Below, in pieces: positions 7,290 through 47,278 of a stretch of 64,000 bases of DNA. The stretch is from assembly GCA_905233945.1 (NCBI GenBank), contig CAJOFY010000002.1, positions 5,188-69,187 of the forward strand. The letters are read 5' to 3'. The first letter of the stretch is position 1, and each line of letters opens with the position of its first letter. This DNA comes from an uncultured bacterium (GTDB lineage Bacteria; UBP6; UBA1177). A model generated the notes under the pieces. That model saw only the letters and a program-made list of their open reading frames with translations, did not search any database and was not told the origin of the DNA. A program made the position numbers and the translations under genes.

Positions 7290-7324
7290 TGGAACCTCCC
7301 CAGTAAAAAAATAAAAAACGTTAT

Positions 7325-7352
7325 ATTTTAGGAATTTTGAAAAAAATTTCAA
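7325..7352 (-). promoter_or_regulatory. Promoter of the tandem lipoprotein operon
   Basis: Reading leftwards, TTGAAA at 7352-7347 and TAAAAT at 7330-7325 are separated by 16 bases, matching the layout seen before several other genes here. It lies 36 bases upstream of the ATG at 7289. Confidence 0.55.
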
Positions 7353-19367: not shown

Positions 19368-21530
19368 ATGAAGAAAATCACAACACTTTTTTATCTTACG
19401 GCAGTTTCGCTGCTTTTGATTCTGGCAGCAGGCTGCGGCAATTCCGGTTCAGGCAGAAAACAGGGCGGAATTTACGGCGAATGTTTCAAGGATAATACCT
19501 GCGGTGACGGACTTGTATGCGATACGGAAAACAATGTGTGCATAAAAGACATGACCGCTGACAAAGATGCAGAAAATACTGATGATATTGAACCGGATGA
19601 CGATACAGATTGGGAAACAATTCCTGACGAGGATTCCGCTTCCGGCGAAAAAGACGACACCGATCCCTCGAAAGACGGATACGGAAACTGGAACGATCCG
19701 AAAACCGGTTTGATATGGTCAGAAAAGCATTTTGTTTCAGGGATGTCAGTACTGGATGATCTTATTTCATTCTGCGGCAACCTCGTCGAAGGCGGTTTCA
19801 GCGACTGGAGAATGCCTACAATTGACGAACTCAGAACACTGATTCAGAATTGCTCAAACACAGAACCTTACGGATTCTGCAAGATAAGCGAAGAGACCGG
19901 AGCTCTCTCCTGGGATGATGATTTCGATATATGGAGATGCAACTGTTTATGGAAAGACGAGTGGACTCAGCAGACAGGAAAAGATGAATTCGTTTATGAC
20001 AACGGCGGCTACTACAGCAAAATAGGCGATGATCAGAATGTTGCTCTCTGTTCTTCTTCTGTCAGTGATGACGGAGGCGCTCCATGGTGGGTCGGTTTTC
20101 GCACGGCCAGCATAGCACCCGCTTCTCTCGATAAGGGAGCTGTATTCCGCTGTGTAGGAAGTTATTCACGACAGAAACAGTGCGATGGACTTCCCGAAAA
20201 TGCAGGCTGGAACGTTTTTTCAGACATTCCGCAAAGATGGGACGGTTCATCATGGATTCCTGACGATGCGGCTTCCTACAATGAAAAACCGAGCGAGACG
20301 GAATGCAGGTTTATATGCAATCCGGGATACAAATGGAACGGTTCAGAGTGCGCTTTGCAGGATCTTGAAGCCATTTCCGAATGCAGCCATGGAAGCCCTG
20401 CACCGTGCCATGAGTCCTCAAGTGGTCTTATCTGGTCTGCGAAGGCACCGTATGAAATGCTGCACTATGATGCCGTTGATTACTGCGATAATCTTGCTGA
20501 AGGCGGACTCGGCGGCTGGCATCTGCCGACAATCAGCGAGCTCCGTACACTGATTCAGAATTGTCGCTGGACGGTTACAGGAGGGGACTGCAGGATTACA
20601 GATGATTGCCTTTCTGCAACAGCTTGCGAATACTCATATAGTCAATGTGATAATGATTGCAACAGTATTGGCGGCAACAATGGCGCTCACGTCATATACA
20701 GCAAATTCGGTGATGAAGGAGATTTTTTATCTTCATCTAAATTGGCAGATTACCCTGATGATGTGTGGGGTGTGAACTTTGATAAAGCTCAAATTCTGGC
20801 ATTCGGTACAGACGAAGTCTATCATAAAGCCAGTGTCCGCTGCGTAAAAAGCAAACAGGTTCGCAGGGAATGTACCGGACTCCCTGAAAATGCGCTCTGG
20901 AACAGCGTTTCAAGCATATTGCAGACATGCGACGAAACATCGTGCCTGCCGAGCGCGGTCGGGGTCTATAACGAAACTCCGAGCGAAACAGAATGCAGAT
21001 TCAAATGCTATCCCGGTTATGAGTGGGATGGTTCGAAATGCAATCTTACCAACCCTGAAGCTCTTTCGGAATGCGGTCCTGAAAGCCCTATGCCGTGCAT
21101 GGATCACTCAAGCGGTCTTGTCTGGTCTTCTAAAACTTCGACATCATGGGATATGCTGGATGCCGAAGATTACTGTGAAAACCTTACCGAAGGCGGGATC
21201 ACCGGCTGGCATCTGCCGACGATCAGCGAACTCAGGACTTTGATCGTGGACTGTCCTGCTACGGAGCCTGGCGGAGAATGCGGAGTTACTGATGACTGCC
21301 TGTCGAAAGAAGAGTGCTTGACAGAGAAGATCTGCTCCTGCGGTTATAATGACAATCACATCAAGTTCGGATATGAGGGTTATTATCTGCTCTCTTCTTC
21401 CAGAAACGGCGAAATTTATCACGGTGCAGAAGGAGATTACGAAAGAGTGTGGTGTGTTTACTGCAGCTATGCCAAGATAAAAGAGTGCAGTCTGATGTGG
21501 CCAGACCTCAATTTTCACTGTGTGAGGTAG
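19368..21530 (+). CDS. DUF1566-repeat lipoprotein (GLPENA linker type)
   Basis: 720 residues with the lipoprotein signal MKKITTLFYLTAVSLLLILAAGC. A short Cys unit (GECFKDNTCGDGLVCDTENNVC) and an acidic tether precede three DUF1566 domains, marked by GLIWS...FCGNLVEGGFSDWRMPTIDELRTLI, then GGWHLPTISELRTLI, then TGWHLPTISELRTLI. They are joined by two copies of a roughly 60-residue Cys-containing module with GLPENA.WN, WDGSSW, YNE and ECRF.C..GY.W.G..C. Its first 65 residues nearly match those of the next gene, showing recent duplication. GAGG precedes the ATG. Surface location is inferred; no function is known. Confidence 0.92.
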   Translation: MKKITTLFYLTAVSLLLILAAGCGNSGSGRKQGGIYGECFKDNTCGDGLVCDTENNVCIKDMTADKDAENTDDIEPDDDTDWETIPDEDSASGEKDDTDPSKDGYGNWNDPKTGLIWSEKHFVSGMSVLDDLISFCGNLVEGGFSDWRMPTIDELRTLIQNCSNTEPYGFCKISEETGALSWDDDFDIWRCNCLWKDEWTQQTGKDEFVYDNGGYYSKIGDDQNVALCSSSVSDDGGAPWWVGFRTASIAPASLDKGAVFRCVGSYSRQKQCDGLPENAGWNVFSDIPQRWDGSSWIPDDAASYNEKPSETECRFICNPGYKWNGSECALQDLEAISECSHGSPAPCHESSSGLIWSAKAPYEMLHYDAVDYCDNLAEGGLGGWHLPTISELRTLIQNCRWTVTGGDCRITDDCLSATACEYSYSQCDNDCNSIGGNNGAHVIYSKFGDEGDFLSSSKLADYPDDVWGVNFDKAQILAFGTDEVYHKASVRCVKSKQVRRECTGLPENALWNSVSSILQTCDETSCLPSAVGVYNETPSETECRFKCYPGYEWDGSKCNLTNPEALSECGPESPMPCMDHSSGLVWSSKTSTSWDMLDAEDYCENLTEGGITGWHLPTISELRTLIVDCPATEPGGECGVTDDCLSKEECLTEKICSCGYNDNHIKFGYEGYYLLSSSRNGEIYHGAEGDYERVWCVYCSYAKIKECSLMWPDLNFHCVR

Positions 21531-21534
21531 ATAG

Positions 21535-23232
21535 ATGAAAAAAATTGCGATTTGTATTCTGACGGTTTCGGCTCTGCTTGTCCTGATGATCGGTTGCGGC
21601 AGCAATTCGGGTTCAGGCAGGAATCAGGGTGAAATTTACGGCGAATGTTTTAAAGACAACACCTGCAACGAAGGGCTTGTCTGCGACACTGAGCATAACA
21701 CCTGTGTCAGAGATGAAGATTATTCTGATGATGCCGGGCCTGATACCGGAGATGATTATGATAACGAAGCTGATGATCAAAAAGATACTGCCGAGCCGGA
21801 AGAAGATAATGAAATATATGAAGAAACCATGCCTGACGATGTCGATGTCTATTGCTGGGAGTACAAGTGCAAAGACGGAAAAAGTTATTGCGGATATAAA
21901 AAAAACGGCGGTGAAATTAAATGGGCAAAAATTGAAACCTGCGCTTTTTCCGAATGTATCGCTTCCACCGGAAAATGCGGCTGTGACACTTCGGAAGACG
22001 GAAAAATACACTGCGAAAGCGACAAGCTTCATATTTGTTCCAACGGTAAATGGCAAATCACGGAACAATGCAAAGCCGGCTGCGATTCCGCGACAGACAG
22101 TTGCAGGCCGTGGGAAGATCCTGACAGCGGCCTGGAATGGTCAATGGAATCAAATGCCATGATTTGGAAAGATGCTGTCGATTATTGTGATAATCTTACC
22201 GAGGGTGGATTCAGCGACTGGCGGCTTCCGTCAATCAGTGAAGCCCGCACATTGATTCTGCACTGCCTGGAGACCAAAACAGGCGGACGATGTGGAGTTA
22301 CTGACACCTGCCTGTCGTCTGACTGCTGGAATTACAACTGCAGTCTGCTGTGCGATCCTAAACAAGACGGCTATTACAACAAAATGGATAACAGCCATAC
22401 AACTTCCAGTCTGTTCTGGTCTGCTTCAGAGGTTTCGGACAGCTTGATCCGCGCATGGGGCATTGAACTTTACACAGGCGGTGTTGCGGAAAAAGTCAAA
22501 AACGAATACGGCGTTGTCCGCTGTGTCAGAGGTGAAAATCACTTACGGCAGTGCAAAGGACTTCCGGAACACGCATTCTGGAACAGCGCTTCCGACATAT
22601 TTTCGACTTGGGACGGCTCATCATGGCAGCCTTCGCTGACAGGTGTTTACAATGAAACTTCAAGTGAAAAAGAGTGCAGATTCAAGTGCATTCCAGGATA
22701 CAAATGGGACGGATATAAATGTATATTGAGTGATGATTTGCCTGAATGCGCTCCTGAAAGCCCGACTCCTTGCAAGGATTATTCCAGCGGGCTGGTCTGG
22801 TCTTCGAAGTCTTCGGAAAAAAGTAATTGGAAAGATGCCGTCAATTATTGTTTAAGACATTCGGAAAACGTAGGCAAAGTGTGGTTCATGCCGACAATCG
22901 ACGAACTCAGAACGCTTGTCAAAAAGTGCCAGAAGGCGGAATACGGAGGAATATGCGCGATAAGTGAGGAAAACGATATTCTTTCTATTTATGATGTCGG
23001 AGAGAGGGAAAGCTGTTTTTGCTATGAAAAGGGCTCCGAATCCAGCGAATACAACAAATTCGGAGATTCCGGTTTGTTCTGGTCATCTTCCGCACGTTCG
23101 GACGATCCGGATTATATATGGGGTGTTTTCTACGGTTATATTTCATACGGTGCCGGCAGCTATAGCGGTGTTGAAATCATGAATTTTATCAAAACCTATG
23201 ATCGCGGTAATGTCCGCTGTGTCGCGAGATAA
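21535..23232 (+). CDS. DUF1566-repeat lipoprotein, paralog of the preceding gene
   Basis: 565 residues; signal MKKIAICILTVSALLVLMIGC, then GSNSGSGR and the same GECFKDNTC..GLVCDTE unit as the gene before it. After the acidic tether a Cys-rich region specific to this copy (about 105-185: CWEYKCKDGKSYCGYKKNGG..., CDTSEDGKIHCESDKLHICSNGKW) precedes two DUF1566 domains (FSDWRLPSISEARTLI and VWFMPTIDELRTLV) joined by one GLPEHA..ECRFKC module. It starts four bases after the upstream stop (RBS GAGG), so the two form one operon. Confidence 0.92.
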   Translation: MKKIAICILTVSALLVLMIGCGSNSGSGRNQGEIYGECFKDNTCNEGLVCDTEHNTCVRDEDYSDDAGPDTGDDYDNEADDQKDTAEPEEDNEIYEETMPDDVDVYCWEYKCKDGKSYCGYKKNGGEIKWAKIETCAFSECIASTGKCGCDTSEDGKIHCESDKLHICSNGKWQITEQCKAGCDSATDSCRPWEDPDSGLEWSMESNAMIWKDAVDYCDNLTEGGFSDWRLPSISEARTLILHCLETKTGGRCGVTDTCLSSDCWNYNCSLLCDPKQDGYYNKMDNSHTTSSLFWSASEVSDSLIRAWGIELYTGGVAEKVKNEYGVVRCVRGENHLRQCKGLPEHAFWNSASDIFSTWDGSSWQPSLTGVYNETSSEKECRFKCIPGYKWDGYKCILSDDLPECAPESPTPCKDYSSGLVWSSKSSEKSNWKDAVNYCLRHSENVGKVWFMPTIDELRTLVKKCQKAEYGGICAISEENDILSIYDVGERESCFCYEKGSESSEYNKFGDSGLFWSSSARSDDPDYIWGVFYGYISYGAGSYSGVEIMNFIKTYDRGNVRCVAR

Positions 23233-32199: not shown

Positions 32200-32227
32200 T
32201 TGACAAAAAAAATTAAGAATATTTATT
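32200..32227 (+). promoter_or_regulatory. Possible promoter of the metalloprotease gene
   Basis: TTGACA (32200-32205) with a 16-base spacer and a poor TTTATT -10 (32222-32227), about 40 bases before the ATG at 32266. Confidence 0.3.
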
Positions 32228-32265
32228 GCTTGCTAATTATAGGTTTTTTGTTATTGGAGAGAAAA

Positions 32266-34566
32266 ATGAGAAAATTGTTTATTTTGACTGCAATCCTTTT
32301 TGCGTTTACGGCACTTTTCGGCGGGAAGCCGGAGTTTGAAATCATCAGGCTCGAAAAACCGCTTTCAGCGGCAAATATTCAGAATTTTGTCGCCAAAAAA
32401 CTTCCTGCGGCAATTTCCCTGAAGTCCCCGCTTCTCAAAGGAACGATCCAAAATTCCAACACGATCTCTGGTGTTTCGATACACAGGGTTTCATGGGTCT
32501 ACAACGGTATTCCGGTTGTAGGCAAATTCACCGTCATCAAAGAAAAAGACGGAAAAATATTTAATATTATCAACGGTTTGCATGATTTTTCACTCGACAC
32601 AAAACCTGTTCTTTCACCTGAACAGGCTGCTCTCACACTGAAAGGGAAACATTTCGGCGACCCGGCAATAAAACCCGATTTCGCAGCAAAACTCGTGATA
32701 CTCGAAGACTCTGGAGACTACAGACTTGCATACCGCATCCGCTTCCGCCCCATGAGTCCTGTTGACGGCAGATTTTTTTTCGTTGACGCAAAAAACGGCA
32801 GACTTCTCCGCACAGGCAACCTCGTAAAGTTTGCGACAAACAAGGCTAAAGTTTTCGAGATGAACCCGGTCAGCACTCCTGATCCGGTAGAAGTCGATCT
32901 TCTCTGGGTCGGAGACGATGCAGAGGGCAAACTTTCCGCAGCAGCCAATGAAAAAGGCCTCAGAAAAATCGTTGCAGCCAACTGCCCCGATTTAGGCGAA
33001 ATGTTTGAATACGATACCGGCTACCAAAAATACGAATTTCCTGTCTGCACTATCAAGCAGCTTGCAAACAAAGATGAAAACGGCAGTTTCATCTACGAAG
33101 ACTGGGACAAAGGTTTAAAGTACAAATTCGATACCGAAGACATTTATCCCGAAATCGCTCTTTACTATCACATGACTAAAATTTACGACTATCTTGCCGG
33201 ACTCGGTCTCAAAGAATATACGGAACTTCCGAACCATGAAGGAACCAAGCCTATAGTCGGAATTGCCAACTTCCAGATGATGGGCTATTACAGCGGATAC
33301 AATACATCCGACCTGAAGCCGATGGACAACGCTTTCTTCAGCAAATACGATCCCTCATTTGCCGAAATGTTCTACGGTGATTTTGAATACAACGACTGCG
33401 ACGCTCTTGTTTTCGGTCAGGGAACAAATGCCGATTTTGCTTACGACGGCGACGTTATCTATCACGAATTCGGTCACGGCGTTGTTGACGGCATCGCGAA
33501 TTTCGAATACACAGGCTGGCCCGACAAATACGGTTTCACCAATGAAATCATGGGAATGAACGAAGGTATGGCCGATGTTTTCTCGTTCATAATCACCGAA
33601 GATCCGTGCCTTGCCGAGTATGTTGCTAAAGGAACCGGTCAGATGGCCGGCGCAGTAGAACTAGACGGGAAACTCTGCCTCAGAACGACAACGAATCCGA
33701 ACCGCGTAAACGAAGATTTCACCGGAGAAAGCCACAACGACGGTCTCCCGCTTGTCGGAGCACACTGGGAAATTTATGAGAAAATGATTGAAAACGGCTT
33801 CACAAAAGACGATTTTGCGAAAATTTTCCTTACCGCACTCATGTCGGTTCCGCACAGCGAGATCGGTTACAAAGAGTGGGGCGAACTCATGCTTGACGCA
33901 GCCGAATCAAGTCCGGCAGCGGCTCTGAAGGAGGATTTCAGGCAAATTCTCACAGACAGAGGCTACTTCAACGAAATCCGTGCGAGAGACATCACCGGCA
34001 AATCGGATCTGTTTACAGTCGGCGGTGTCGGTGACGGATACTACACAGCTTCCACCGATACGGTTCTGATAAATTACGACGCTGATTATCTGGAAGTCAG
34101 CCCGATGTATGTCCAGTTTTACTACGATGTTCCTGAATGTATAGATACTTTGAAAGTGTCCGCAAGTCTTTACAGTGATACCGGTAACCAGAGATTCGCA
34201 CCTGAATTCATGGTTTTTGTCCGTGAAGGCAAGCCTGTCGAATGGAGCCACAAAAGCGAACCGAGCAGCGTCAAATACGACAAAGTTGTTGAAAGTTATG
34301 ACGGCGACAGCTGGACTTTTTCGAATCTCAAGCCCGGCGAAAGATACTATTTCCATTTCATAAACACCGGTTCATCAGGATACGTCTACAATATGAAAGC
34401 CAAAGGATCCTGGGCATCCGAAGAAAAATGTGAATCCTCGGAAAACCCGGATGAAGAGAATATATCTGACAATGACGAAGAAAATGTATCTGATGACGAC
34501 ATGATGAACGACGATGAATCCAAAAAGGAAAACAAAAACAGCGGCTGCTCGATGACCCTTCTTTAA
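32266..34566 (+). CDS. Secreted M4-type (thermolysin-like) metalloprotease
   Basis: 766 residues from the ATG at 32266 (GGAGAG just upstream) with signal peptide MRKLFILTAILFAFTALFGG. An FTP/PepSY-like propeptide (about 45-180, VSWVYNGIPVVGKFTVI) precedes the peptidase domain. The zinc site is HEFGH at 400-404 with the third ligand in NEGMAD (Glu433), the M4/M36 pattern. A C-terminal beta domain (about 570-710) precedes an acidic D/E/N-rich spacer. The last residues are NKNSGCSMTLL, a tail shared with two other secreted proteins here. It shares its terminal A with the next start (TAATG), so both are translated together. Extracellular protein degradation is the likely role. Confidence 0.9.
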   Translation: MRKLFILTAILFAFTALFGGKPEFEIIRLEKPLSAANIQNFVAKKLPAAISLKSPLLKGTIQNSNTISGVSIHRVSWVYNGIPVVGKFTVIKEKDGKIFNIINGLHDFSLDTKPVLSPEQAALTLKGKHFGDPAIKPDFAAKLVILEDSGDYRLAYRIRFRPMSPVDGRFFFVDAKNGRLLRTGNLVKFATNKAKVFEMNPVSTPDPVEVDLLWVGDDAEGKLSAAANEKGLRKIVAANCPDLGEMFEYDTGYQKYEFPVCTIKQLANKDENGSFIYEDWDKGLKYKFDTEDIYPEIALYYHMTKIYDYLAGLGLKEYTELPNHEGTKPIVGIANFQMMGYYSGYNTSDLKPMDNAFFSKYDPSFAEMFYGDFEYNDCDALVFGQGTNADFAYDGDVIYHEFGHGVVDGIANFEYTGWPDKYGFTNEIMGMNEGMADVFSFIITEDPCLAEYVAKGTGQMAGAVELDGKLCLRTTTNPNRVNEDFTGESHNDGLPLVGAHWEIYEKMIENGFTKDDFAKIFLTALMSVPHSEIGYKEWGELMLDAAESSPAAALKEDFRQILTDRGYFNEIRARDITGKSDLFTVGGVGDGYYTASTDTVLINYDADYLEVSPMYVQFYYDVPECIDTLKVSASLYSDTGNQRFAPEFMVFVREGKPVEWSHKSEPSSVKYDKVVESYDGDSWTFSNLKPGERYYFHFINTGSSGYVYNMKAKGSWASEEKCESSENPDEENISDNDEENVSDDDMMNDDESKKENKNSGCSMTLL

Positions 34567-35543
34567 TGTTCAGTTTTTTGAAAGAAAACATAGATTACGG
34601 ACTTTATTCCGCATACCAGTTCGCATTTCTGAAAAACGAAATCCTTTCGTGCGGGTGCGCGGGGACTTTTGATTTCGATTCAAGTGATAAAATAAATAAT
34701 TCCACGCAGTTTGACCTTGCTTCGCTCACGAAGGCGATTGTCACCGTCCCGCTTTTTTACAGCCTGATTGCAGAGAAGGAAATCAGCCCCGATGAAAAAA
34801 TATCCCGTTTTTTTGGAGATAACAGCAGTAACATCACTGTTTACGAGCTTCTGAGCCACACTTCTGGTTTCCCGGCATGGCTTCCGTTTTATGAACTTGT
34901 TCCGGCTGAAAAACCTTTGGAAGAAAGAAAAAAAGAGGTCGAAAAAATTATTTTTGAGCACGAAACCGGAGACAAAACAAAGTGTTACAGCGATCTCAAC
35001 TATCTTCTGCTCGGTTTTATCCTTGAAAAAACGTTCGACAGTCCGCTTGATAAAATCTTCAGCGGTTTCGTCAAATCAAACAGACTGGAGGGTACCTTCA
35101 CCTTCGACCCGGAAGACAAAACACCGAAAACGGCTTTTTCCAAACTGCGCAATAATTTCCCAGAAAAAACAGTCGAAGATGAAAACTGCTGGTTTTTAGG
35201 CGGGAAAACAGGTCATGCAGGACTTTTCGGAAGCGCCCAGGCAGTTGTCGGCCATTTCCACAGACTACTAAAAACACTGTGGTTTCTGCCGACAGCGCAA
35301 AGGCTGGATTTTGCCGGCTTCGACCGTCCGGAAGGAAACGATTCGAACTACGGAAAATCGGCTAACCCGGAAAGTTTCGGACATCTGGGCTTCACCGGAA
35401 CCGCTTTTCTTATCGACCCCGATAAAAAAACAATCGCCGCGCTTCTCACAAACTCAACTCATCCGACTCCCGATAAACCCGGAAGAAAAGAACGGATAAA
35501 ACGGGCAAGACAGCAGTTTTTCGATTCATTCCGGCAGGCATAA
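34566..35543 (+). CDS. Serine hydrolase of the beta-lactamase/PBP (class C-like) family
   Basis: 325 residues. Motifs of the family: S53-L-T-K56 in FDLASLTKAI, the Y-S-D-L-N tyrosine motif at about 140-145, and HLGFTGT near the end in place of KTG. LLSHTSGFPAW is also typical. No signal peptide is visible, so it is probably cytoplasmic unless exported with its neighbour. Such enzymes act as esterases, D-amino-acid peptidases or similar; the presence of the family does not mean antibiotic resistance. The ATG overlaps the protease stop codon (TAATG), indicating coupled translation. Confidence 0.85.
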   Translation: MFSFLKENIDYGLYSAYQFAFLKNEILSCGCAGTFDFDSSDKINNSTQFDLASLTKAIVTVPLFYSLIAEKEISPDEKISRFFGDNSSNITVYELLSHTSGFPAWLPFYELVPAEKPLEERKKEVEKIIFEHETGDKTKCYSDLNYLLLGFILEKTFDSPLDKIFSGFVKSNRLEGTFTFDPEDKTPKTAFSKLRNNFPEKTVEDENCWFLGGKTGHAGLFGSAQAVVGHFHRLLKTLWFLPTAQRLDFAGFDRPEGNDSNYGKSANPESFGHLGFTGTAFLIDPDKKTIAALLTNSTHPTPDKPGRKERIKRARQQFFDSFRQA

Positions 35544-35554
35544 CATAAAGCAAC

Positions 35555-35582
35555 TTGATTTTGATTTTTTCAAGGCTACAAT
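35555..35582 (+). promoter_or_regulatory. Promoter of the subtilisin gene
   Basis: TTGATT (35555-35560), 16-base spacer, TACAAT (35577-35582), followed by a leader of about 105 bases. Confidence 0.5.
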
Positions 35583-35596
35583 TATTAGTTTTTACG

Positions 35597-35641
35597 TGCC
35601 TTGATAAATGTACCGATTTATTGGTCTTTTTTTATAAGGCA
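35597..35641 (+). other. Nested stem-loop in the subtilisin mRNA leader
   Basis: TGCCTT (35597-35602) pairs with AAGGCA (35636-35641), enclosing ATAAAT/ATTTAT (35604-35609/35616-35621) and then a T-rich run. It may be a stability or attenuation element; no known riboswitch is recognised. Confidence 0.35.
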
Positions 35642-35695
35642 TTGTTTTTGCTTAAATTTTTAGTTTTTTGTTTTGATATTTTGCGGAGGTTAAAA

Positions 35696-38317
35696 ATGTC
35701 TGTTTTCAGAAAAACAGCTGTTCTTCTTTTATCAATCTGCGTTTTTTCGCTTCTTTTTGCCGAAAACGAGCGTCCGGTTCTCGGCAAACTTATTGAAAGA
35801 AACGGCTTTCTTTACGACACTTTTTATTATCATGTCAGCGGCGAACCGCAGTATCTCCTTCAGAAATACAACGAGATCGCGCTTCCTCATTCAGTCAATC
35901 TGAACTCACTTAACGGGCTTGAATTCGACGGCATGCGGATCACCGACCTTATCTCCGATGTCACGTTCGATGCCCAGAATTTCAGGGCTTTCAAAATCAA
36001 ACTTGACGAGTACGACCGCAAAAACTGGATGCAGGTGCGCAATATTCTTGCAAAAAACGGTGTTGCTGCATGGCCGGTTCTCACTTACCACGCAAAAGAT
36101 ACTCCGATAGTTCTCGACGGTACGATGAACCTTGTCTTCACAAAATACACAAGCAAAGAGGAGCAGGAGGAAACTCTCAGGATTTTCGGGCTTGAAGTCG
36201 TTGAAATCATTGACGAAGAAAACAACTATTACAAAGTTCAGCTTCCTGCCGGAACAGATCCTTTCGCAATCGCGAACGCTCTCTATACAAGAAATTTGGT
36301 CCGCTGGGCCCAGCCGAACTGGCTCTGGAAATTCATCCCCATGGCTACGACCCCGAACGACCCTTATTTTTCAAGTCAGTGGCATTTGACTCAGATCAAC
36401 GCGCAGCATGCATGGGACACTGAAACAGGCGAAGGAAAAGATGTCAGAATCGCTATCGTAGATACCGGTGTTGACCTTAATCACCCTGACCTCAACGTTC
36501 TTTCGAACCTAGGCAAAGACTACCTCGGCAGCCTCGGCGGTGCTCCGAATATTCCCACCTACGGCGGCAATCAGAAGGGAGGAAACGATCATGAAGGCAC
36601 GCCGCACGGAACATCGTGTGCCGGTCTTGCAGCTGCGAAGACGAACAACAGTCTAGGTGTTTCGGCTTCATGCTGGGGATGTCCTATCATTCCGATAAGA
36701 CTTATTGCCGATGCCGGTGTTGATCAATACTCGGCAGTACATCCTGAAGACAACTACAACGCGATGAAACATGCCGTTGACAACGGTGCGTGGGTTGTAA
36801 GCAACAGCTGGGGTATGCAGGATACGGACTGGCAGGGAAACTGCTCCACAGTTCCTGCCGACAGCAACAGTTCACAGGGTGTAGATTACGGCAGACAAAA
36901 CGGCAGAAACGGCAAAGGGACTCTTTTTCTCTGGGCGGCTGGAAACTCGCACTGCAACACCAGTATGAACAATTTCCTTAAAAACGACGATGACCTTCTG
37001 ACTGTCAGCGCTCTCAGCAGCTCCGGCTCTATGGAAAGCTACTCGAACTACGGCGTTGCAATAGATATCGCCGCAGGAGCCGGTGCAAGCACAACAGATA
37101 TTCAGGGAAACACTTACGGCTATGCAATATCATCTTACGGCGGTCTCGGAAGCCTTGACAGTAACGGCGACTACACGAGCGGATTCAGCGGAACAAGCGC
37201 GGCAACCCCTGTTGCTGCCGGTGCTGTAGCACTCATGCTCGCGGCAAATCCCGACATGACTTTCAATGAAGCGATGAACTGCATCAAAGTTTCGGCGTTC
37301 AGACCGACAACCGCCTGCGCAGAAGGCAACTGGACATCACAGAGCGACGATTATATCACCAACGGCCAGCATTCACCATGCTACGGTTACGGCATAGTTG
37401 ATGCGAACGCAATGGTTGTCGGCGCTAAGAACGGAACATGCGGCGAGTGCATCCCGACAGCCACGATCGACGGTTGTTTCAGCAGCTACGCCGGCAAAGA
37501 CGATGACTGCGACGGCATAGTTGACAACGACTGCACAACAACCGGAGGAAAAGGAAAAGCCGGCGATGCCTGCACGGCGGCATCTGACTGCGTCAATACG
37601 TCAAACAACCCGAAATGCATCACTGACGAAGGCTGGACCGGAGGTTACTGTTCCGGCGTATGTTCTTCAAATGCCGACTGCCACAACGGCACCAAACAAG
37701 TTGAATGTTACCAGGGACAGTGCATAGCAAAATGCAGCTACAACGATATCCGCTCTGGCTACGCATGCATTTCCGACAAAATCCTTCCGAAAGGAACAGA
37801 GGTTGTCGCGAACTGCGGAAACAACGTAAAGGAAGAAGGTGAAAAATGCGACGGTGACACAAAAACCTGCAAATCAATCGACAGCAGCTTCACCGGCGGA
37901 TACGCTCAGTGCAACCAAAACTGCACAGGATACGACACCAGCACCTGCCAGGGCGGCGGCGGAAGTCTCTGCGGAAACGGCAACGTTGACAACGGCGAAC
38001 TCTGCGACGGAGATACGACACCATGCAGTCAGCTTGCAAATACTCCTCCGAACGGAACGGCGAAATGCACCGCGAACTGCCTCGGATGGGATAAATCAGG
38101 CTGCTACGACGGCGGCTCCTCAGACAACGGTTCAGGCAACAACGGCGGCTCCGGAAACGGCTCCTCAGACAAGGAAAACTGCGGAAACGGATTCCTTGAC
38201 GCCGGAGAACAGTGTGACGACGGCAACAAAATGGACGGCGACGGCTGTTCGAAATACTGCATGAAGGAAAGCGGCACAAAATCCTCATCTTCCGGCTGCG
38301 CGATAACGGTTTTCTAA
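35696..38317 (+). CDS. Secreted subtilisin-like serine protease (S8) with Myxo-type Cys repeats
   Basis: 873 residues from the ATG at 35696 (GGAGG six bases upstream), signal peptide MSVFRKTAVLLLSICVFSLLFA. An I9-like prodomain (about 60-215) precedes the catalytic domain, with Asp256 in IVDTGVDLNHPDL, His304 in HEGTPHGTSCAG and Ser501 in GFSGTSAATPVAAG. After residue 580 come DDDCDGIVDNDC (MopE-like calcium loop), several Cys units with CGN..EEGE.CDGD, and a final CGNGFLDAGEQCDDGNKMDG repeat of the DUF4215/Myxococcus type. The chain ends SSSSGCAITVF, matching the tail of the M4 protease. Likely extracellular or surface-bound. Confidence 0.93.
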   Translation: MSVFRKTAVLLLSICVFSLLFAENERPVLGKLIERNGFLYDTFYYHVSGEPQYLLQKYNEIALPHSVNLNSLNGLEFDGMRITDLISDVTFDAQNFRAFKIKLDEYDRKNWMQVRNILAKNGVAAWPVLTYHAKDTPIVLDGTMNLVFTKYTSKEEQEETLRIFGLEVVEIIDEENNYYKVQLPAGTDPFAIANALYTRNLVRWAQPNWLWKFIPMATTPNDPYFSSQWHLTQINAQHAWDTETGEGKDVRIAIVDTGVDLNHPDLNVLSNLGKDYLGSLGGAPNIPTYGGNQKGGNDHEGTPHGTSCAGLAAAKTNNSLGVSASCWGCPIIPIRLIADAGVDQYSAVHPEDNYNAMKHAVDNGAWVVSNSWGMQDTDWQGNCSTVPADSNSSQGVDYGRQNGRNGKGTLFLWAAGNSHCNTSMNNFLKNDDDLLTVSALSSSGSMESYSNYGVAIDIAAGAGASTTDIQGNTYGYAISSYGGLGSLDSNGDYTSGFSGTSAATPVAAGAVALMLAANPDMTFNEAMNCIKVSAFRPTTACAEGNWTSQSDDYITNGQHSPCYGYGIVDANAMVVGAKNGTCGECIPTATIDGCFSSYAGKDDDCDGIVDNDCTTTGGKGKAGDACTAASDCVNTSNNPKCITDEGWTGGYCSGVCSSNADCHNGTKQVECYQGQCIAKCSYNDIRSGYACISDKILPKGTEVVANCGNNVKEEGEKCDGDTKTCKSIDSSFTGGYAQCNQNCTGYDTSTCQGGGGSLCGNGNVDNGELCDGDTTPCSQLANTPPNGTAKCTANCLGWDKSGCYDGGSSDNGSGNNGGSGNGSSDKENCGNGFLDAGEQCDDGNKMDGDGCSKYCMKESGTKSSSSGCAITVF

Positions 38318-38373
38318 GTTTTGTTTATTTTTTCTTTAATAAAATCACAATATTAAGCCACGAGGTGCAAAAA

Positions 38374-40002
38374 ATGAAGTTCAAAAGTCTCTGCCTTGCA
38401 GTTTTTGCCGCGATTTTTATTTTCGCAGCATGTTCAGACAGTAAAAAAGATGAGAATACGAATTCCGACTCTGATCCGATCAACGACCAGAATGACGAAT
38501 TGCCTGACGACTCCGAACAGGAGGACGATGCAACGGCAGCCAATCCCGATTTCGAGGATCTGGAATGCGGTACGAATTTCGGAGACTATGCCTGTGATTT
38601 CACTCTGCCGTTCGATTCGGAAAACTGGAATTTCGCGGAAAACTACTCGAAAAACGAAAACTACCTTTTCGTGTTCTACCGCGGAATGAACCAGACAAGC
38701 ACCAAAATCTGGTCGTCGGAACTCTACAACACATTTGAAAAATCACCTGAAAACATCCATTTTTTCTTCATTGTAGAAACCGATAAAAGCGATTTTGCCG
38801 AAGAAAAAGCACAAATCATAAAAGACTCTGTAAAAGAGGCCGTCGCAATTACCGGCAAAAAAAATCTTCTTGAAAAAATCCACATCATGGACAAGACTCT
38901 CTCCGAAACGGATTCATGGATAAATGAGTGGCTTAAAAACAACAAATCCGATTTTTTCATCGGCATCGACAGATTCCGCAGACTCAGAAAAGGCGGCTCG
39001 TTTTCAAACTGGAACTCGAACTCGCTTCCGCCGGAACTCGACAACATCCACAAAGAGGCCGAGCTTTACGATTACGAAAAACAACTTTCTGATTTTATTG
39101 AAGAAAACAAACAGAATTCCACAGTTTTCAAAGGTTTGGAAAGTGTTCCTTTTGAAGATGAAGGCTGGACTAAAAACATTGATTTCACAACTGATTTCAA
39201 AGGACTTTCCGAAAACGGCGAACTTTACATCATGCTTGAGCAGATCTGCGACGACCCGAACAAATGCAAGTGGGACCGCCTGGAAAGGCTTTTCCTCTGC
39301 GACGAAACCGGTGAAAAATGCGAAACCGAGATCGGACGCTGGATCACGACTTACGGCAGAAGCGGAAAATGGCTGACCGACATCACGCCGCTGAAACCGC
39401 TTTTTGAAAAAGAGGGAAAATACAAATTCAGATTTACGGTCGACGGCGACTATTACGTCAACAACCTTGACTTCATTTTTGTAAAGAAAAACGATACCGC
39501 GAAAAACACTCTTACTCCGCTTTTCAACCAGCGCGAACAGTTTGACGAAACCTACAACTCGCATTTTAAACCGATGAAGATCGAAATCTCCGGAAATGTC
39601 AAGAAAGCAAAGATTTTCGCGTTCATCACAGGCCACGGAAACCAATCTGAGGAGGCAAACTGCGCCGAGTTCTGCCCGTTTGAATCAGTTTTCACTGTAA
39701 ACGGAACTGACTTTAAAATCCGCTTTGACAAGGCTGGAAACTCCGACGGATGCTTTGAGGAAGTAAAAAACGGCGTTGTTCCCAACCAGTACGGTTCATG
39801 GCCATACGGCCGTGCAGGATGGTGCCCTGGCCAAAACGTCACGCTTATTGAAGCCGATGTTTCGGAAGCTCTTGTCAGCGGCGAAAACACTTTTTCCTAC
39901 GCGGCTTACCTTGACGGAGAGGTTTACGAGCCGGTCGTTACAGACGAAAGCGGCTATCGCGCCGAAATTTATCTTTCAAGTTATCTGGTACTTTACGAAT
40001 AA
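38374..40002 (+). CDS. Peptide-N-glycosidase F-like lipoprotein
   Basis: 542 residues; lipoprotein signal MKFKSLCLAVFAAIFIFAAC (Cys20), start at 38374 with AGGTG upstream rather than the in-frame GTG at 38365. Residues 70-235 resemble a thioredoxin-like insert (LFVFYRGMNQTSTKIWSSELY). From about 245 the PNGase F jelly-roll domains follow: CKWDRLERLF (W300-D301-R302, probably the catalytic Asp region), IGRWITTYG, GHGNQSEEANCAEFCPF (420 on), VNGTDF, DGC and VVPNQYGSWPYGRAGWCPG (466-486). PNGase F removes N-linked glycans from asparagine. In this protease cluster it would deglycosylate glycoproteins before proteolysis; substrate and activity are inferred. Confidence 0.85.
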   Translation: MKFKSLCLAVFAAIFIFAACSDSKKDENTNSDSDPINDQNDELPDDSEQEDDATAANPDFEDLECGTNFGDYACDFTLPFDSENWNFAENYSKNENYLFVFYRGMNQTSTKIWSSELYNTFEKSPENIHFFFIVETDKSDFAEEKAQIIKDSVKEAVAITGKKNLLEKIHIMDKTLSETDSWINEWLKNNKSDFFIGIDRFRRLRKGGSFSNWNSNSLPPELDNIHKEAELYDYEKQLSDFIEENKQNSTVFKGLESVPFEDEGWTKNIDFTTDFKGLSENGELYIMLEQICDDPNKCKWDRLERLFLCDETGEKCETEIGRWITTYGRSGKWLTDITPLKPLFEKEGKYKFRFTVDGDYYVNNLDFIFVKKNDTAKNTLTPLFNQREQFDETYNSHFKPMKIEISGNVKKAKIFAFITGHGNQSEEANCAEFCPFESVFTVNGTDFKIRFDKAGNSDGCFEEVKNGVVPNQYGSWPYGRAGWCPGQNVTLIEADVSEALVSGENTFSYAAYLDGEVYEPVVTDESGYRAEIYLSSYLVLYE

Positions 40003-40016
40003 GATTTACAGATTTT

Positions 40017-40970
40017 TTACAGAACCGTAAGCGAACAGCCCGAACTTGTCATGGTTTCGCTTGCTTCGGGAGCATCATCACCGTTGCAGATGTAATAGCT
40101 GTTTTGAACCTCGTTTTCGTCAAGGACACCGTTTCTGTCTTTATCCAGCCCGTTCATGAATTTTTTGCCGCCGTTTTCGCACTTGCTGCCGGCAGGCTCA
40201 TCAACTATACTGACCAAAGAATCAAAACCGTCGGTTCCGGCCTCACCCTGAGCGCCATCATGACCCTGCAGACCTGGTTCTCCCTGATCGCCGCGGTCGC
40301 CTTTGCTGCCTTCAGCTCCGTTTTTACCGTCAGTTCCGATATTTGTTTTACCTTTATCCCCCTGAGGGCCCACTTTATCGGCAGCAGAGCCGTTGCAGAT
40401 ATATTTTACCGTTATCTCGGATTCTTCGAAAGTTCCGTTTCCGTCTGCATCGAAGCAGATCTCGATTTTTGAACCGCCCTCAGCGCACTTTTCACCTGCA
40501 GGCTCTTCAGAAACAACAAATTCCGAAGCTTTTCCGTCAGCACCGTCAGCACCGTTTTTTCCGTTTCCAATTTCCATGGAAACCTTTGATTCTCCGTCAT
40601 CACCAGGTGTAGTACCGACATTACATATAGAGGTTTTAATGATTTGCTTATCGGTATCGATCTTGTCGTCTAAATTGCAGTCGAAACCGCTTTTTATCAT
40701 GACTCCGCCCGTAGGACACGCGGCATAAATTTCCGCCGGAGTTCCAGGTTCGGATTTGGCGTTGCAGCCGTCGGCACCGTTGCAGACGTATCCGCCTGAC
40801 TGAATTTCGCTGTCGTCAAGAATATCGTCCGCACCAGGATCGCCTACCGCAACATATATGCCGCCCAGCGGACAGTTCGCATCACCTGAAGTAAGCTCTG
40901 TCGTCTCGATTACCTGAACCGCGGAAAGCGGAAGCGAGACAAATAAAAAGAGAGGTAATATTTTTTTCAT
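40017..40970 (-). CDS. Secreted collagen-like/DUF7151-like repeat protein
   Basis: 317 residues with signal peptide MKKILPLFLFVSLPLSAVQ and GGAGG before the ATG. Four units contain a CxxGG..., then D-x-N/D-x-NG-x-L/F-D/E-x-E pattern and Y.CNG, the EF-hand-like loops of DUF7151. They are separated by collagen-type G-x-y stretches: DGADG, GPQGDKGKTNIGTDGKNGAEGSK and GDRGDQGEPGLQGHDGAQGE. The C-terminus is TMTSSGCSLTVL, the same tail type as the two proteases. Calcium-dependent surface or matrix protein is an inference. It converges with the PNGase-like gene across a 14-base gap. Confidence 0.85.
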   Translation of the reverse strand: MKKILPLFLFVSLPLSAVQVIETTELTSGDANCPLGGIYVAVGDPGADDILDDSEIQSGGYVCNGADGCNAKSEPGTPAEIYAACPTGGVMIKSGFDCNLDDKIDTDKQIIKTSICNVGTTPGDDGESKVSMEIGNGKNGADGADGKASEFVVSEEPAGEKCAEGGSKIEICFDADGNGTFEESEITVKYICNGSAADKVGPQGDKGKTNIGTDGKNGAEGSKGDRGDQGEPGLQGHDGAQGEAGTDGFDSLVSIVDEPAGSKCENGGKKFMNGLDKDRNGVLDENEVQNSYYICNGDDAPEASETMTSSGCSLTVL

Positions 40971-40979
40971 GGCCGCCTC

Positions 40980-42239
40980 CTAACCGCGCACCTTCTTTAC
41001 AGCAGCAAAAGCAAAAATCATTGAAAGTGCCGCAAGCAGCGCAAGAATCAGAGAATCTCCGTCATCAAGCGCACTTGCCGAGCATCCAGTCGAGGAAGAA
41101 GTGAGGCCAGCCTCCTCAGCATCTCTTCCGTTGCAGACATAGTGGATGTTTTCAGAATCGACTTCGCCTTCGTCAAGAGTTCCGTTTCCGTTCACATCAA
41201 GACCGGTTTCGATTTTTTTGCCGCCGGCAACGCAGTTTTCCCCTTTCGGCTCATTGACAACCGATACAAGAGCCGCGGCGCCGTTGCTTCCGTTTGCACC
41301 TGAGGGACCGGTTTCGCCCTGTTCACCCTGTTCACCTGCCGGACCTTCATCGCCTTTCGGCCCCTGATCACCGTTGCATACATATTTTATCTGTGTAACT
41401 TCAGAATCTTCGAGCTTACCGTTGTCGTCCGAGTCAACTCCGACTTCTATTTTAATACCGCCGTTGACACAGCCGCTCTCTGCTTCCATTTCACCGGCAT
41501 TGAAACTTGAAGTTCTCGCAAGCGCGTCATGGCCTTTAGGTCCCGGAGCTCCCTGCGATGATGCGTTTTTACCGTTGCAGACATATTTAGTCTGAGTCGG
41601 ATCCACTTCGGAATCTTCGAGCGAACCGCTGTTGTCAAGGTCAATGCCTGTCTCTATTTTTATACCGTCATTTTTCGTGCAGTTGTCACCTTTCGGCTCG
41701 TCGGAAACTTTTAGAAGCGCGTTGTGTCCGTTGCCGCCGTTTTCTCCGTTGCAGATATATTTTGTCTGTGTAATCTCGGTATCTTCGAGCTCGTTGCTGT
41801 CGTCAGAGTCAACTCCGACTTCTATTTTTGTACCGCCGTTGGCGCAGCCGCTCTCTGCTGTCATCTCACCGGCATTGAAACTTGTGGTTCTTGAAATCGC
41901 GTCGTGGCCCTTGTCACCTTTTTCTCCGTTGCAGACATATTTAGGCTGTTCCGAACCGATAGTAACTTTTACGCCACCTGCAGCACAGTTGGTACCGGCA
42001 GCTTCTTCTGTAACCGAAACCGCAGGTCCAGCTCCGTCGCAGACATAATTCGTAGAAGTCACTTCGGAATCTTCGAGCGAGCCGTTCTCATCATCGTCCG
42101 TGCCGCTTTCGATTTTGACACCGCCGTGGGTGCAGTTTGCTCCGGCACCTTCATGAGAAACATTCACAAGCATATCCTTTGCCGAAAGCGGAAATGCACA
42201 CAAAAAACTTAAAACAATAATAAAAGCTGTTTTTTTCAT
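40980..42239 (-). CDS. DUF7151-like repeat surface protein with Cys-TM-basic C-terminal anchor
   Basis: 419 residues, signal peptide MKKTAFIIVLSFLCAFPLSAK. Five full DUF7151-like units and one short one (EEAAGTNCAAGGVKV... D.D..GSLEDSEVTSTNYVCDG and variants) are followed by a collagen-like GPKGDEGPAGEQGEQGETGPSG stretch and a last unit. The C-terminus, TSSSTGCSASALDDGDS + hydrophobic helix LILALLAALSMIFAFAA + KKVRG, is a tripartite sorting signal like MYXO-CTERM or Synergist-CTERM. The start has GAGAGG upstream; the next gene begins nine bases after its stop. It may be cut and anchored by a sortase-like membrane protease not found in this window. Confidence 0.88.
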   Translation of the reverse strand: MKKTAFIIVLSFLCAFPLSAKDMLVNVSHEGAGANCTHGGVKIESGTDDDENGSLEDSEVTSTNYVCDGAGPAVSVTEEAAGTNCAAGGVKVTIGSEQPKYVCNGEKGDKGHDAISRTTSFNAGEMTAESGCANGGTKIEVGVDSDDSNELEDTEITQTKYICNGENGGNGHNALLKVSDEPKGDNCTKNDGIKIETGIDLDNSGSLEDSEVDPTQTKYVCNGKNASSQGAPGPKGHDALARTSSFNAGEMEAESGCVNGGIKIEVGVDSDDNGKLEDSEVTQIKYVCNGDQGPKGDEGPAGEQGEQGETGPSGANGSNGAAALVSVVNEPKGENCVAGGKKIETGLDVNGNGTLDEGEVDSENIHYVCNGRDAEEAGLTSSSTGCSASALDDGDSLILALLAALSMIFAFAAVKKVRG

Positions 42240-45217: not shown

Positions 45218-47278
45218 ATGAAAAGATTTTCCATTTGCTTAGCTCTTTTTGCGGCACTGCTTTTCGTAATTTCATGCGGCGGCGGTTCGAAAAAAGAAAA
45301 TTCAGCCGAAACTCAGGATTCAGATTCAGGAGAAACTGTAACCGACAGCGATACAGCTGACACTGAAACTTCAGACGGCGATACAACCGACACCACGCCA
45401 GACAACGGCGATACAGTTGATACCGGAACTTCAGACGATGATAAAACCGATAGCGCGACTGATAACGGCGATACGACTGACGATTCAGGCGATTCCCAGC
45501 CTGACAACGGCGATACGATCGATGATTACGATGAGGAGGACGCCAAAAGCCCGTGCGACCAGAATCCGTGTGCAGATGTTTCGGCATCGGACGGAGAATG
45601 CACTGAAAAAGACGAAACCTATGAATGCGGCTGCTTTGAAAACTACTCATGGAAAGAGGGTGACTGCGTCGCTGACAGCCAGCATACTGAATGCAAAAAC
45701 CTGCCTGAAAACGCAGTATGGAACACCGCGACCGAAATTACGCAAAAATGGACAGGCTCAGTCTGGGAACCTTCGACAAACGGTGTTTACAATGAAGAGG
45801 TTTCGACAACTGAATGCCGCTTTAAATGCAACGATGGATATGAATGGAACGGTGCAAAATGCGTCGTGATTTTTCAGAAGTGCAATGCCGAAAACGCTGA
45901 CAAAACCTGCAAAGACGACGTAACAGGCTACATCTGGTCGGCTCAGTCGGCTGAAAAATACGGTCAGGAGGATATTAAAACATACTGCGAAGGTCTGACG
46001 ACCGACAACCTTTCGTGGAGAACGCCTAATATCGACGAACTCCGCACAATTATCAGGAACTGCGACAAGACAAAAACAAACGGAGCATGCCCTGTCACTG
46101 TTGCGCACTTCGATTACAACACATACTGGAATGATGACTGCAAAGGCTGCACTCCTGAAGAAGGAATTAAATACAACATTTTCGGCACAAAAAAGGGCGA
46201 CAGCTATTTCCGTCTCTGGTCTTCAACTCAGTCCGAAGAAAACAGCATATCCTATTATACGGTAATGTTTTCTTCAGATACTTATATGGCTTACATAGGT
46301 CCGGATTACACTTCATCCTGGAATATCCGCTGCCTCGGAAGCGGCAAATGCCAAGAAAATTACGAGCTTGACGGCAATTTTGAGTGCGTTCCGGCAACAA
46401 GACTCGCCCACTGTGAAAATCTTCCTGAAAACGCCGTTTCAAATTCGATCATAAACGGCGACTACAACATTGTGCAGGTCTGGAACCCTGCAATCGGGAA
46501 ATGGCTGCCGGAAAATACAACATTCAAACTCTGCTTTGATGACGATCCTTCCGAATGCTGCTTCCACTGCGAGGAAGACAACTATAGATACAACCAGGCA
46601 GAAAACAAATGCGAGCAGATAACAAGGAAGCTTGCATGCCGGGGACTTCCTGACTACGCAGAGTGGAACGGCATAGATGGAATCACCCAAACTCTATCCA
46701 GCGACGGCAAATGGCTGCCTAATAAGAACAACACCGGAGTTTATGACACAAATCCAAGTGAAACCGAGTGTCATTTCAAATGCCAAACAGACTTTGAATG
46801 GAACAACGGAAAGAGGTGTTTGCGCAAAACACCGTACTTAGATTCAACAACCGGTCTCACCTGGTCGGCATTATCTTCAAGCAAGATTGGCATAAATGAA
46901 GCCGTTAATTATTGCAGCACTTATTCTGAATCCGGTTTAAGCGGCTGGCGTTTACCGACTATCAACGAACTCCGCACCCTGATAAAAAATTGCAAAAGCA
47001 CAATGCCTAACGGCAGCTGCCCTGTCAGCGAGCCGAATTGTCTCGGTGAGGGCTGTTTTGAAACATTGTCTTGCAATAGGTGTCATTGGGCGCAGTATAA
47101 CGATGATTTTGATGAAATCGGACGCAGCATAATGGGAGATGATGACAAATTATTGTCTTCCTCGTCTTACGATGATTATTTTGCGGGCGTCGACTTCCGT
47201 CTCGGAAATATTGAAAAGATTCGTAAAATAGATATCAATGGTAAAGAAAATTCTTTATATGTCCGCTGCGTCAAGTAA
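45218..47278 (+). CDS. DUF1566-repeat lipoprotein with long D/T-rich tether
   Basis: 686 residues; signal MKRFSICLALFAALLFVISC and GGGSKKEN. Residues 30-105 are an acidic tether built on D-G/S-D-T repeats. An EGF-like unit (CDQNPCADVSASDGECTE) leads to two DUF1566 domains (LSWRTPNIDELRTIIRNC and LSGWRLPTINELRTLIKNC). Three copies of the GLPENA..ECRFKC module lie between and around them; the middle copy is divergent (ECCFHC). It is a relative of the 19368-23232 pair rather than of the 1-7289 trio. AGG in CGAGG precedes the ATG. Confidence 0.92.
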   Translation: MKRFSICLALFAALLFVISCGGGSKKENSAETQDSDSGETVTDSDTADTETSDGDTTDTTPDNGDTVDTGTSDDDKTDSATDNGDTTDDSGDSQPDNGDTIDDYDEEDAKSPCDQNPCADVSASDGECTEKDETYECGCFENYSWKEGDCVADSQHTECKNLPENAVWNTATEITQKWTGSVWEPSTNGVYNEEVSTTECRFKCNDGYEWNGAKCVVIFQKCNAENADKTCKDDVTGYIWSAQSAEKYGQEDIKTYCEGLTTDNLSWRTPNIDELRTIIRNCDKTKTNGACPVTVAHFDYNTYWNDDCKGCTPEEGIKYNIFGTKKGDSYFRLWSSTQSEENSISYYTVMFSSDTYMAYIGPDYTSSWNIRCLGSGKCQENYELDGNFECVPATRLAHCENLPENAVSNSIINGDYNIVQVWNPAIGKWLPENTTFKLCFDDDPSECCFHCEEDNYRYNQAENKCEQITRKLACRGLPDYAEWNGIDGITQTLSSDGKWLPNKNNTGVYDTNPSETECHFKCQTDFEWNNGKRCLRKTPYLDSTTGLTWSALSSSKIGINEAVNYCSTYSESGLSGWRLPTINELRTLIKNCKSTMPNGSCPVSEPNCLGEGCFETLSCNRCHWAQYNDDFDEIGRSIMGDDDKLLSSSSYDDYFAGVDFRLGNIEKIRKIDINGKENSLYVRCVK

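Follow-up and report, generated by a model that had tools for sequence, protein, structure and literature searches.

The C-terminal sorting signals served by sortase, exosortase/archaeosortase, rhombosortase and myxosortase are all tripartite, with a motif, a helix and a basic end (reviewed in PMC11980579). The myxosortase MrtX, which belongs to the same CPBP family as Rce1, cleaves MYXO-CTERM in a Cys-dependent manner, with surface display via the type II secretion system (T2SS), and a dedicated Cys acyltransferase has been predicted, but not identified, by the same authors (Guo, Haft & Wall 2025, PMC11980579). Here we describe a much shorter C-terminal tail on secreted proteins of an uncultured bacterium of UBP6, a little-known bacterial group with animal guts among its habitats. 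The tail was noticed in a stretch of 64,000 nucleotides (GCA_905233945.1, contig CAJOFY010000002.1, positions 5,188 to 69,187, lineage UBA1177), referred to below as the window. Three window proteins, a metalloprotease, a subtilase and a collagen-like protein, end in NSGCSMTLL, SSGCAITVF and SSGCSLTVL, and a neighbour ends in SSSTGCSASALDDGDS-helix-KKVRG. This shared tail is strongly supported as a real sorting signal, and it is most likely the first tag of the MYXO-CTERM kind seen without a membrane-spanning anchor, a stripped-down version of that signal. No helix-less CTERM signal is described in the literature searched, which did not extend to the main in silico paper on myxosortases.

A shared tail throughout one order of UBP6

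A sequence-only reading of the window had taken the three tails for a possible undescribed sorting signal on otherwise unrelated secreted proteins, possibly a variant without a helix of the full MYXO-CTERM-like signal that it saw on the neighbour. The tails do lie at the protein ends, and the three carriers differ in Pfam content: S8 in the subtilase, sub-threshold M36/M4 matches in the metalloprotease, whose HEFGHG motif is intact despite these weak matches, and DUF7151 with collagen in the third. The neighbour, which is related to the third protein, has the motif, the helix and the basic KKVRG of a MYXO-CTERM-like signal. NCBIfam CTERM models gave no match at E<=1 to the four proteins, the helix-type one included.

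In the 2.65 Mb host genome, a degenerate DNA pattern for G-C-x-x-T-Phi-Phi-stop has seven matches, as against one for a reversed control, and long open reading frames (ORFs) end at five of the seven. Of these five carriers, two lie outside the window: one is a C25 peptidase, ending SSSSGCSATVL, and the other a metallophosphoesterase, ending KSKGCAITVF. Four further host carriers with looser ends (GGCSLDFI, NGCSISVIGGE, SGCALVTID and SGCSALMID), all with a type-I signal peptide, came from stretches picked blind to tails; a rough extrapolation gives 20-30 short-tail proteins per genome. The sampled UBP6 genomes form one order with three families (f1-f3), to which the host belongs, plus another family (f4). 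Across the host order a strict pattern has 55 matches, with all 15 genomes of the host genus represented, and its reversed control has two; a looser pattern combined with DNA context yields 110 distinct ends, of which about 95 close long ORFs. The consensus is an acidic linker followed by S/D, S/G, G, C, S/A/G, a hydrophobic residue or Cys, T/S, V/L/I, I/F/L and the carboxylate, and Asp and Glu make up 33% of the 40 residues upstream of the tail in the roughly 95 distinct proteins. Because the search pattern set, in whole or in part, the Gly, the Cys, the residue after it and the final three positions, their frequencies, such as Gly-Cys in all 95 short tails, are not independent evidence. At the second residue after the Cys, which the pattern left free, all 95 tails have a hydrophobic residue or Cys. 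This pattern-biased collection of tails is one main limit of the survey, beside the draft state of the metagenome-assembled genomes and the simple heuristic used for signal-peptide calls.

The carriers are C25, S8 and M4-like peptidases, metallophosphoesterases, DUF7151 and HYDIN-Ig proteins, and tiny proteins; two f3 examples of 62-64 residues (L015, L033) are built from a signal peptide and an acidic stretch ahead of the tail. Family f3 and a single genus of f1 have a sub-variant, GCGCS[LVI][LI], and some short tails end otherwise (TIID, LVTID, SVIGGE, VVW). Among M4-type orthologs of the host genus the last seven residues are 88% identical, compared with 43% for the linker and 76% for the upstream region; the tail is therefore kept by selection. 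Recent shared ancestry among neighbours, which the sequence-only reading had named as a possible refutation, does not account for a tail found genome-wide, on unrelated folds and in the whole order.

A signal for export is nearly constant among the carriers. A Sec type-I signal peptide is present in 49 of 52 full-length carriers; of the three exceptions, one lies at the edge of a contig, one is a spurious ORF and one has a frameshifted or broken start; the carriers are thus secreted rather than cytoplasmic, as had been supposed from the window. Among distinct UBP6 gene calls, the tail is found on 55 of 226 proteins with a type-I signal peptide and on 2 of 378 others, both apparent misclassifications. 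In the stretches picked blind to tails it ends 4 of 67 proteins with a type-I signal peptide, none of 33 lipoproteins and none of 122 proteins without a signal peptide.

Outside the host order the tail was not recovered. Among 52 out-of-phylum genomes the strict pattern has five matches, all on tiny frames or on TGG, and none ends a real gene. None was real in 22 Myxococcota-type genomes with myxosortase, the GCGC short form is likewise missing from 141 genomes of the phylum Myxococcota, and none was found in UBP6 family f4.

Exchange between the short and the helix form

Every host-order genome also matches the helix-bearing profile, weakly in some (e.g., G017 and G023); most of the matching ends belong to a DUF7151 protein or to proteins of about 1,000 residues that match DUF11/DUF7619. 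The distance from the Cys to the end is bimodal, at 4-8 or 28-40 residues, the mode at 5 being favoured by the search pattern. Homologous proteins exchange the two forms. In f3, TADKIEVTGGGGCSLTLL-stop in one genome (G022) corresponds to TADQIEVSGGGGCSLTTVENGESPETVAGVWLAIALLGIASILRRMSIA-stop in another genus (G024), and homologous ends read GGGGCSLT-LL-stop or GGGGCSLT-TVEN...helix...RRMSIA-stop. At one syntenic place in the host genus, the homolog of the window protein at 40017-40970 ends in SSGCSLTVF-stop or in SSGCSVSLIDDNSGLESFLSVISNICRFVSDLF-stop depending on the species, that is, sister species have a 5-residue end or a non-basic helix end of 28-29 residues. The core covaries as well: where the short tails of a lineage have GCGC, its helix tails have it too (TGCGCSTV...LLRRKISRS). 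Because the GC core is the same in homologs that have the helix and in those that lack it, the short tail is taken to be the same signal as the helix form; the suggestion of a variant without a helix is borne out in this respect, and the tail, spread through the order and swapped for a helix form on homologs, stands as an undescribed signal akin to MYXO-CTERM. It is best read as a MYXO-CTERM-like signal that ends five residues after the Cys.

A helix concealed by a frameshift or by stop readthrough was sought and rejected: neither in-frame reading past the stop nor the +1/+2 frames disclose one in any of 64 short-tail genes, among which all three stop codons occur. The family of about 1,000 residues with helix-type GC tails has host loci at G000:C6:11745, C8:4019, C33:16832, C34:2641 and C44:11779 and is present in most UBP6 genomes of the order, the DUF11/DUF7619 matches being those of two members scanned. 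Homologs of the 40017-40970 protein show a third C-terminal class, with GC[STA] plus 28-29 residues ending in ...ISNICRFVSDLF and no basic end (L045, L046, L051, L053-L056).

Candidate enzymes and export partners

Each of the 15 genomes of the host genus has exactly one PF02517 (CPBP) protein. It scores over the Pfam cut-off, its catalytic EExxxR, FxxxH and HxxxN motifs are invariant, and the best five NCBIfam models for it are all Mrt models (MrtP 85 bits, Mrt_core 79), with MrtX and MrtZ next after them. An AlphaFold2 model is confident and has seven helices. The nearest named relatives come from rumen and gut metagenome-assembled genomes, including UBP6_UBA1177 and UBP6_UBA1196, and farther ones from lake sediment and other environmental bins; on the strength of these relatives the host is assigned to UBP6. 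Beyond UBP6 the closest homologs found are mostly from Myxococcota and deltaproteobacteria. An enzyme fragment from f4 reaches 104.3 bits against Mrt_core (cut-off 100). In f3, where short tails are many and helix tails few, the myxosortase is intact, and in the 65%-complete f3 genome G024 only another, non-myxosortase CPBP protein was found. Judged by its sequence, the single CPBP protein of the genus is a divergent myxosortase with all catalytic motifs, and its link to the short tail is probable. A membrane protease of this kind, proposed earlier as a possible partner of the tail, thus does co-occur with it, once per genome in the genus.

The T2SS secretin GspD is present in all host-order genomes but G002, which is 59% complete; in G001 and G010 its matches are only partial or weaker. 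Lgt-family proteins number 4-7 in most UBP6 genomes of the order, as against a mode of 1 in 51 outgroup genomes and about 3 in myxosortase-bearing Myxococcota-type genomes after merging of split hits. The host genome has six Lgt-family genes (G000:C13, C4, C9, C50, C23 and C3; L273-L278), of which the C4 copy pairs with LspA and four are divergent. This multiplicity is circumstantial, and it fits a dedicated Cys acyltransferase. A tandem lgt-lgt-lspA-lspA operon was seen in f4 (G026, L288:2733-5592), and adjoining pairs of Lgt-family matches occur also in several Myxococcota-type genomes.

Directly upstream of the myxosortase gene lies a gene for a 466-residue membrane protein (L279:2676-4076, G000:C41), a candidate accessory factor. 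The protein is 75-95% identical across the genus and 44% in L198, has no Pfam match, and outside the host genus was seen in just one genome, a more distant one from the rumen. A 140-residue polytopic membrane protein that adjoins the 62-64-residue secreted GCALTLL protein in two f3 genomes (L015, L033, L037-L040) was considered as a dedicated enzyme; a homolog is found also in G015 and G016, and the candidate was rejected with a credible homolog in only 4 of 28 genomes and none in the host genus.

A proposed mechanism and its alternatives

The export signal, the common short tail, its exchange with the helix form and the co-occurring myxosortase and T2SS are read directly from the genomes. We propose, with a probability of roughly two in three, that the tail is a helix-less, CaaX-like myxosortase signal used throughout one UBP6 order, whose Cys is lipidated, whose tail is removed and whose carriers are surface-anchored via the T2SS. 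The protein would leave the cytoplasm by Sec export, directed by its type-I signal peptide. The invariant Cys of [SG]-G-C-[SAG]-Phi-[TS]-Phi-Phi-COOH would be lipidated at the inner membrane, possibly by an Lgt-like enzyme, and the single CPBP-family myxosortase, by co-occurrence and family membership, would trim the residues after the Cys as Rce1 does on the CaaX box. The T2SS would then hand the lipid-tagged protein to the cell surface, where the C-terminal lipid would hold it, by analogy with TraA of M. xanthus. The hydrophobic T-[VL]-[FIL] end may replace the transmembrane helix by dipping into the membrane or by binding the enzyme directly. In CaaX processing by Rce1 a helix is dispensable in principle. 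With odds only a little better than even, we favour the tail as an exported CaaX-like lipidation and processing tag of about eight residues that has no membrane anchor, is served by an extracytoplasmic acyltransferase (perhaps a dedicated Lgt paralog) and the myxosortase, and has largely displaced the helix signal in this order.

Several observations weigh against this mechanism. Its hardest step is the capture of a five-residue tail without a membrane anchor by an acyltransferase or an intramembrane protease. Helix-type substrates are present in the same genomes, and the enzyme could serve those alone. In family f4 a myxosortase and helix tails occur yet no short tails, so the short tail cannot be predicted from the enzyme alone. 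In the host order Mrt_core (NF040914) scores 78.8-84.1 bits, below the cut-off of 100; a PDB fold search with the AlphaFold2 model found no significant match, and a PDB sequence search was likewise unhelpful. Additional Lgt copies are common in Myxococcota as well and may have other causes.

The same tail could be a true sorting signal with another reader, a PDZ-like protein or a T2SS component that binds a class-I-like T-x-Phi-COOH end, the Cys serving for a disulfide or other attachment with neither lipid nor CPBP cleavage. The free T/S-Phi-Phi C-terminus at a nearly fixed distance from the Cys, the near-universal GspD and the lack of a membrane helix for an intramembrane protease all speak for such a reader; we nevertheless consider it unlikely, since the exchange of short and helix tails around one GC[SA]-Phi core and the GCGC cores in both forms within one lineage argue for one recognition system, and since the divergent ends TIID, LVTID, SVIGGE and VVW show that no strict PDZ motif is needed at the C-terminus. 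It is improbable that the Cys is lipidated and the tail left untrimmed, with the following residues serving only as an acyltransferase site and the myxosortase not needed. With just 4-8 residues after the Cys there is little to remove, and UBP6 has several Lgt-like enzymes, but the conservation in kind of the post-Cys residues, hydrophobic or Cys at +2 in every tail, together with an M4-type tail better conserved than the upstream region, suggests that the whole tail is recognised.

Tail-specific proteases of the Prc/Tsp or DegS-like kind are generally known to recognise hydrophobic C-termini, and a degradation or quality-control tag would be read by them; it would leave unexplained the invariant Gly-Cys, the near-exclusive use on signal-peptide proteins and the exchange with MYXO-CTERM-like helices, and we regard it as very improbable. 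Coincidence, recent gene duplication or an artefact that hides a helix would suit the clustering of the carriers in the window and the presence of two DUF7151 paralogs among the four proteins, but the tail's occurrence on unrelated folds genome-wide and order-wide, together with the search of the 64 short-tail genes, already refutes them, and next to no weight is left for these explanations.

The window proteins

The features of the four proteins are collected in Table 1.

Table 1. Secreted proteins of the window and their C-terminal signals.
Feature	Position	Strand	Remarks
Secreted M4/M36-like metalloprotease, HEFGHG	32200..34566	+	type-I signal peptide MRKLFILTAILFAFTALFGG, at internal ATG; acidic linker; end NSGCSMTLL
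Short C-terminal sorting tail S-G-C-S-M-T-L-L-stop	34540..34566	+	kept in genus orthologs
Secreted subtilase (S8) with myxo_disulf_rpt/DUF4215 cysteine-rich region	35555..38317	+	signal peptide MSVFRKTAVLLLSICVFSLLFAEN; end SSGCAITVF
Short C-terminal sorting tail S-S-G-C-A-I-T-V-F-stop	38288..38317	+	
Secreted DUF7151/collagen-like protein	40017..40970	-	signal peptide MKKILPLFLFVSLPLSAVQ; end SSGCSLTVL
Short C-terminal sorting tail S-S-G-C-S-L-T-V-L-stop	40017..40046	-	
Secreted DUF7151/collagen-like protein, helix form of the signal	40980..42239	-	STGCSASALDDGDS + helix + KKVRG
MYXO-CTERM-like tripartite C-terminus: SSSTGC motif, helix, basic end	40980..41099	-	

A gene for a beta-lactamase-like serine hydrolase (34566-35543), without signal peptide or tail, begins at the stop codon of the M4-like protease. 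The window also encodes large lipoproteins (1786-7352, 19368-23232 and 45218-47278) that combine acidic SDSD/TDTD repeats with repeats of a cysteine-rich W-R-L-P module; the short tail is absent from all of them.

Significance and comparison with known systems

Search models for sorting signals expect the tripartite form; if the helix-less form works, such proteins have been overlooked in many genomes, and bacterial surface sorting would be tied to eukaryotic CaaX processing. The tails offer small substrates for two questions, which enzyme lipidates the Cys and whether a myxosortase needs the helix. If the tag anchors its carriers, it would describe the surface display of proteases, collagen-like proteins and phosphoesterases in a rumen-associated candidate phylum.

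The LPXTG/sortase, PEP-CTERM/exosortase and GlyGly-CTERM/rhombosortase systems resemble the UBP6 system in combining a signal peptide with a sorting signal at the opposite end of unrelated secreted proteins, but all have a helix and a basic end, and their motifs and enzymes are unrelated to those of UBP6. JDVT-CTERM/MrtJ, Synerg-CTERM/MrtS and other Cys-containing CTERM systems (NCBIfam) share the invariant Cys and rely on a protease from the same CPBP branch; the UBP6 enzyme matches their models at 1e-16, under the equivalog cut-offs, and the signals, as known, are tripartite with a helix, unlike the short tail. The CaaX box and Rce1 (PF02517 family) also pair a near-terminal Cys followed by hydrophobic residues with a CPBP glutamic protease, and GCGCSLI tails of UBP6 even end in C-a-a-X spacing; CaaX proteins, however, are cytoplasmic and prenylated, whereas the UBP6 carriers are exported and the usual spacing is C plus five.

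The closest likeness is to MYXO-CTERM/MrtX (TIGR03901; Guo, Haft & Wall 2025, PMC11980579). Both systems have exported proteases and adhesin-like proteins with a Sec signal peptide and a linker, an invariant Cys in a Gly-Cys (sometimes GCGC) motif near the C-terminus, and a CPBP-family myxosortase with a T2SS in the genome, and helix-type tails with basic ends occur in UBP6 too, the window example having its transmembrane helix after the Cys. The dominant UBP6 form differs in having 4-8 residues after the Cys, no transmembrane helix, and a T/S-Phi-Phi end in place of one rich in Arg and Lys. Because the helix and the basic end are missing, the short tail is not filed as a member of MYXO-CTERM, although it most likely works like that signal.

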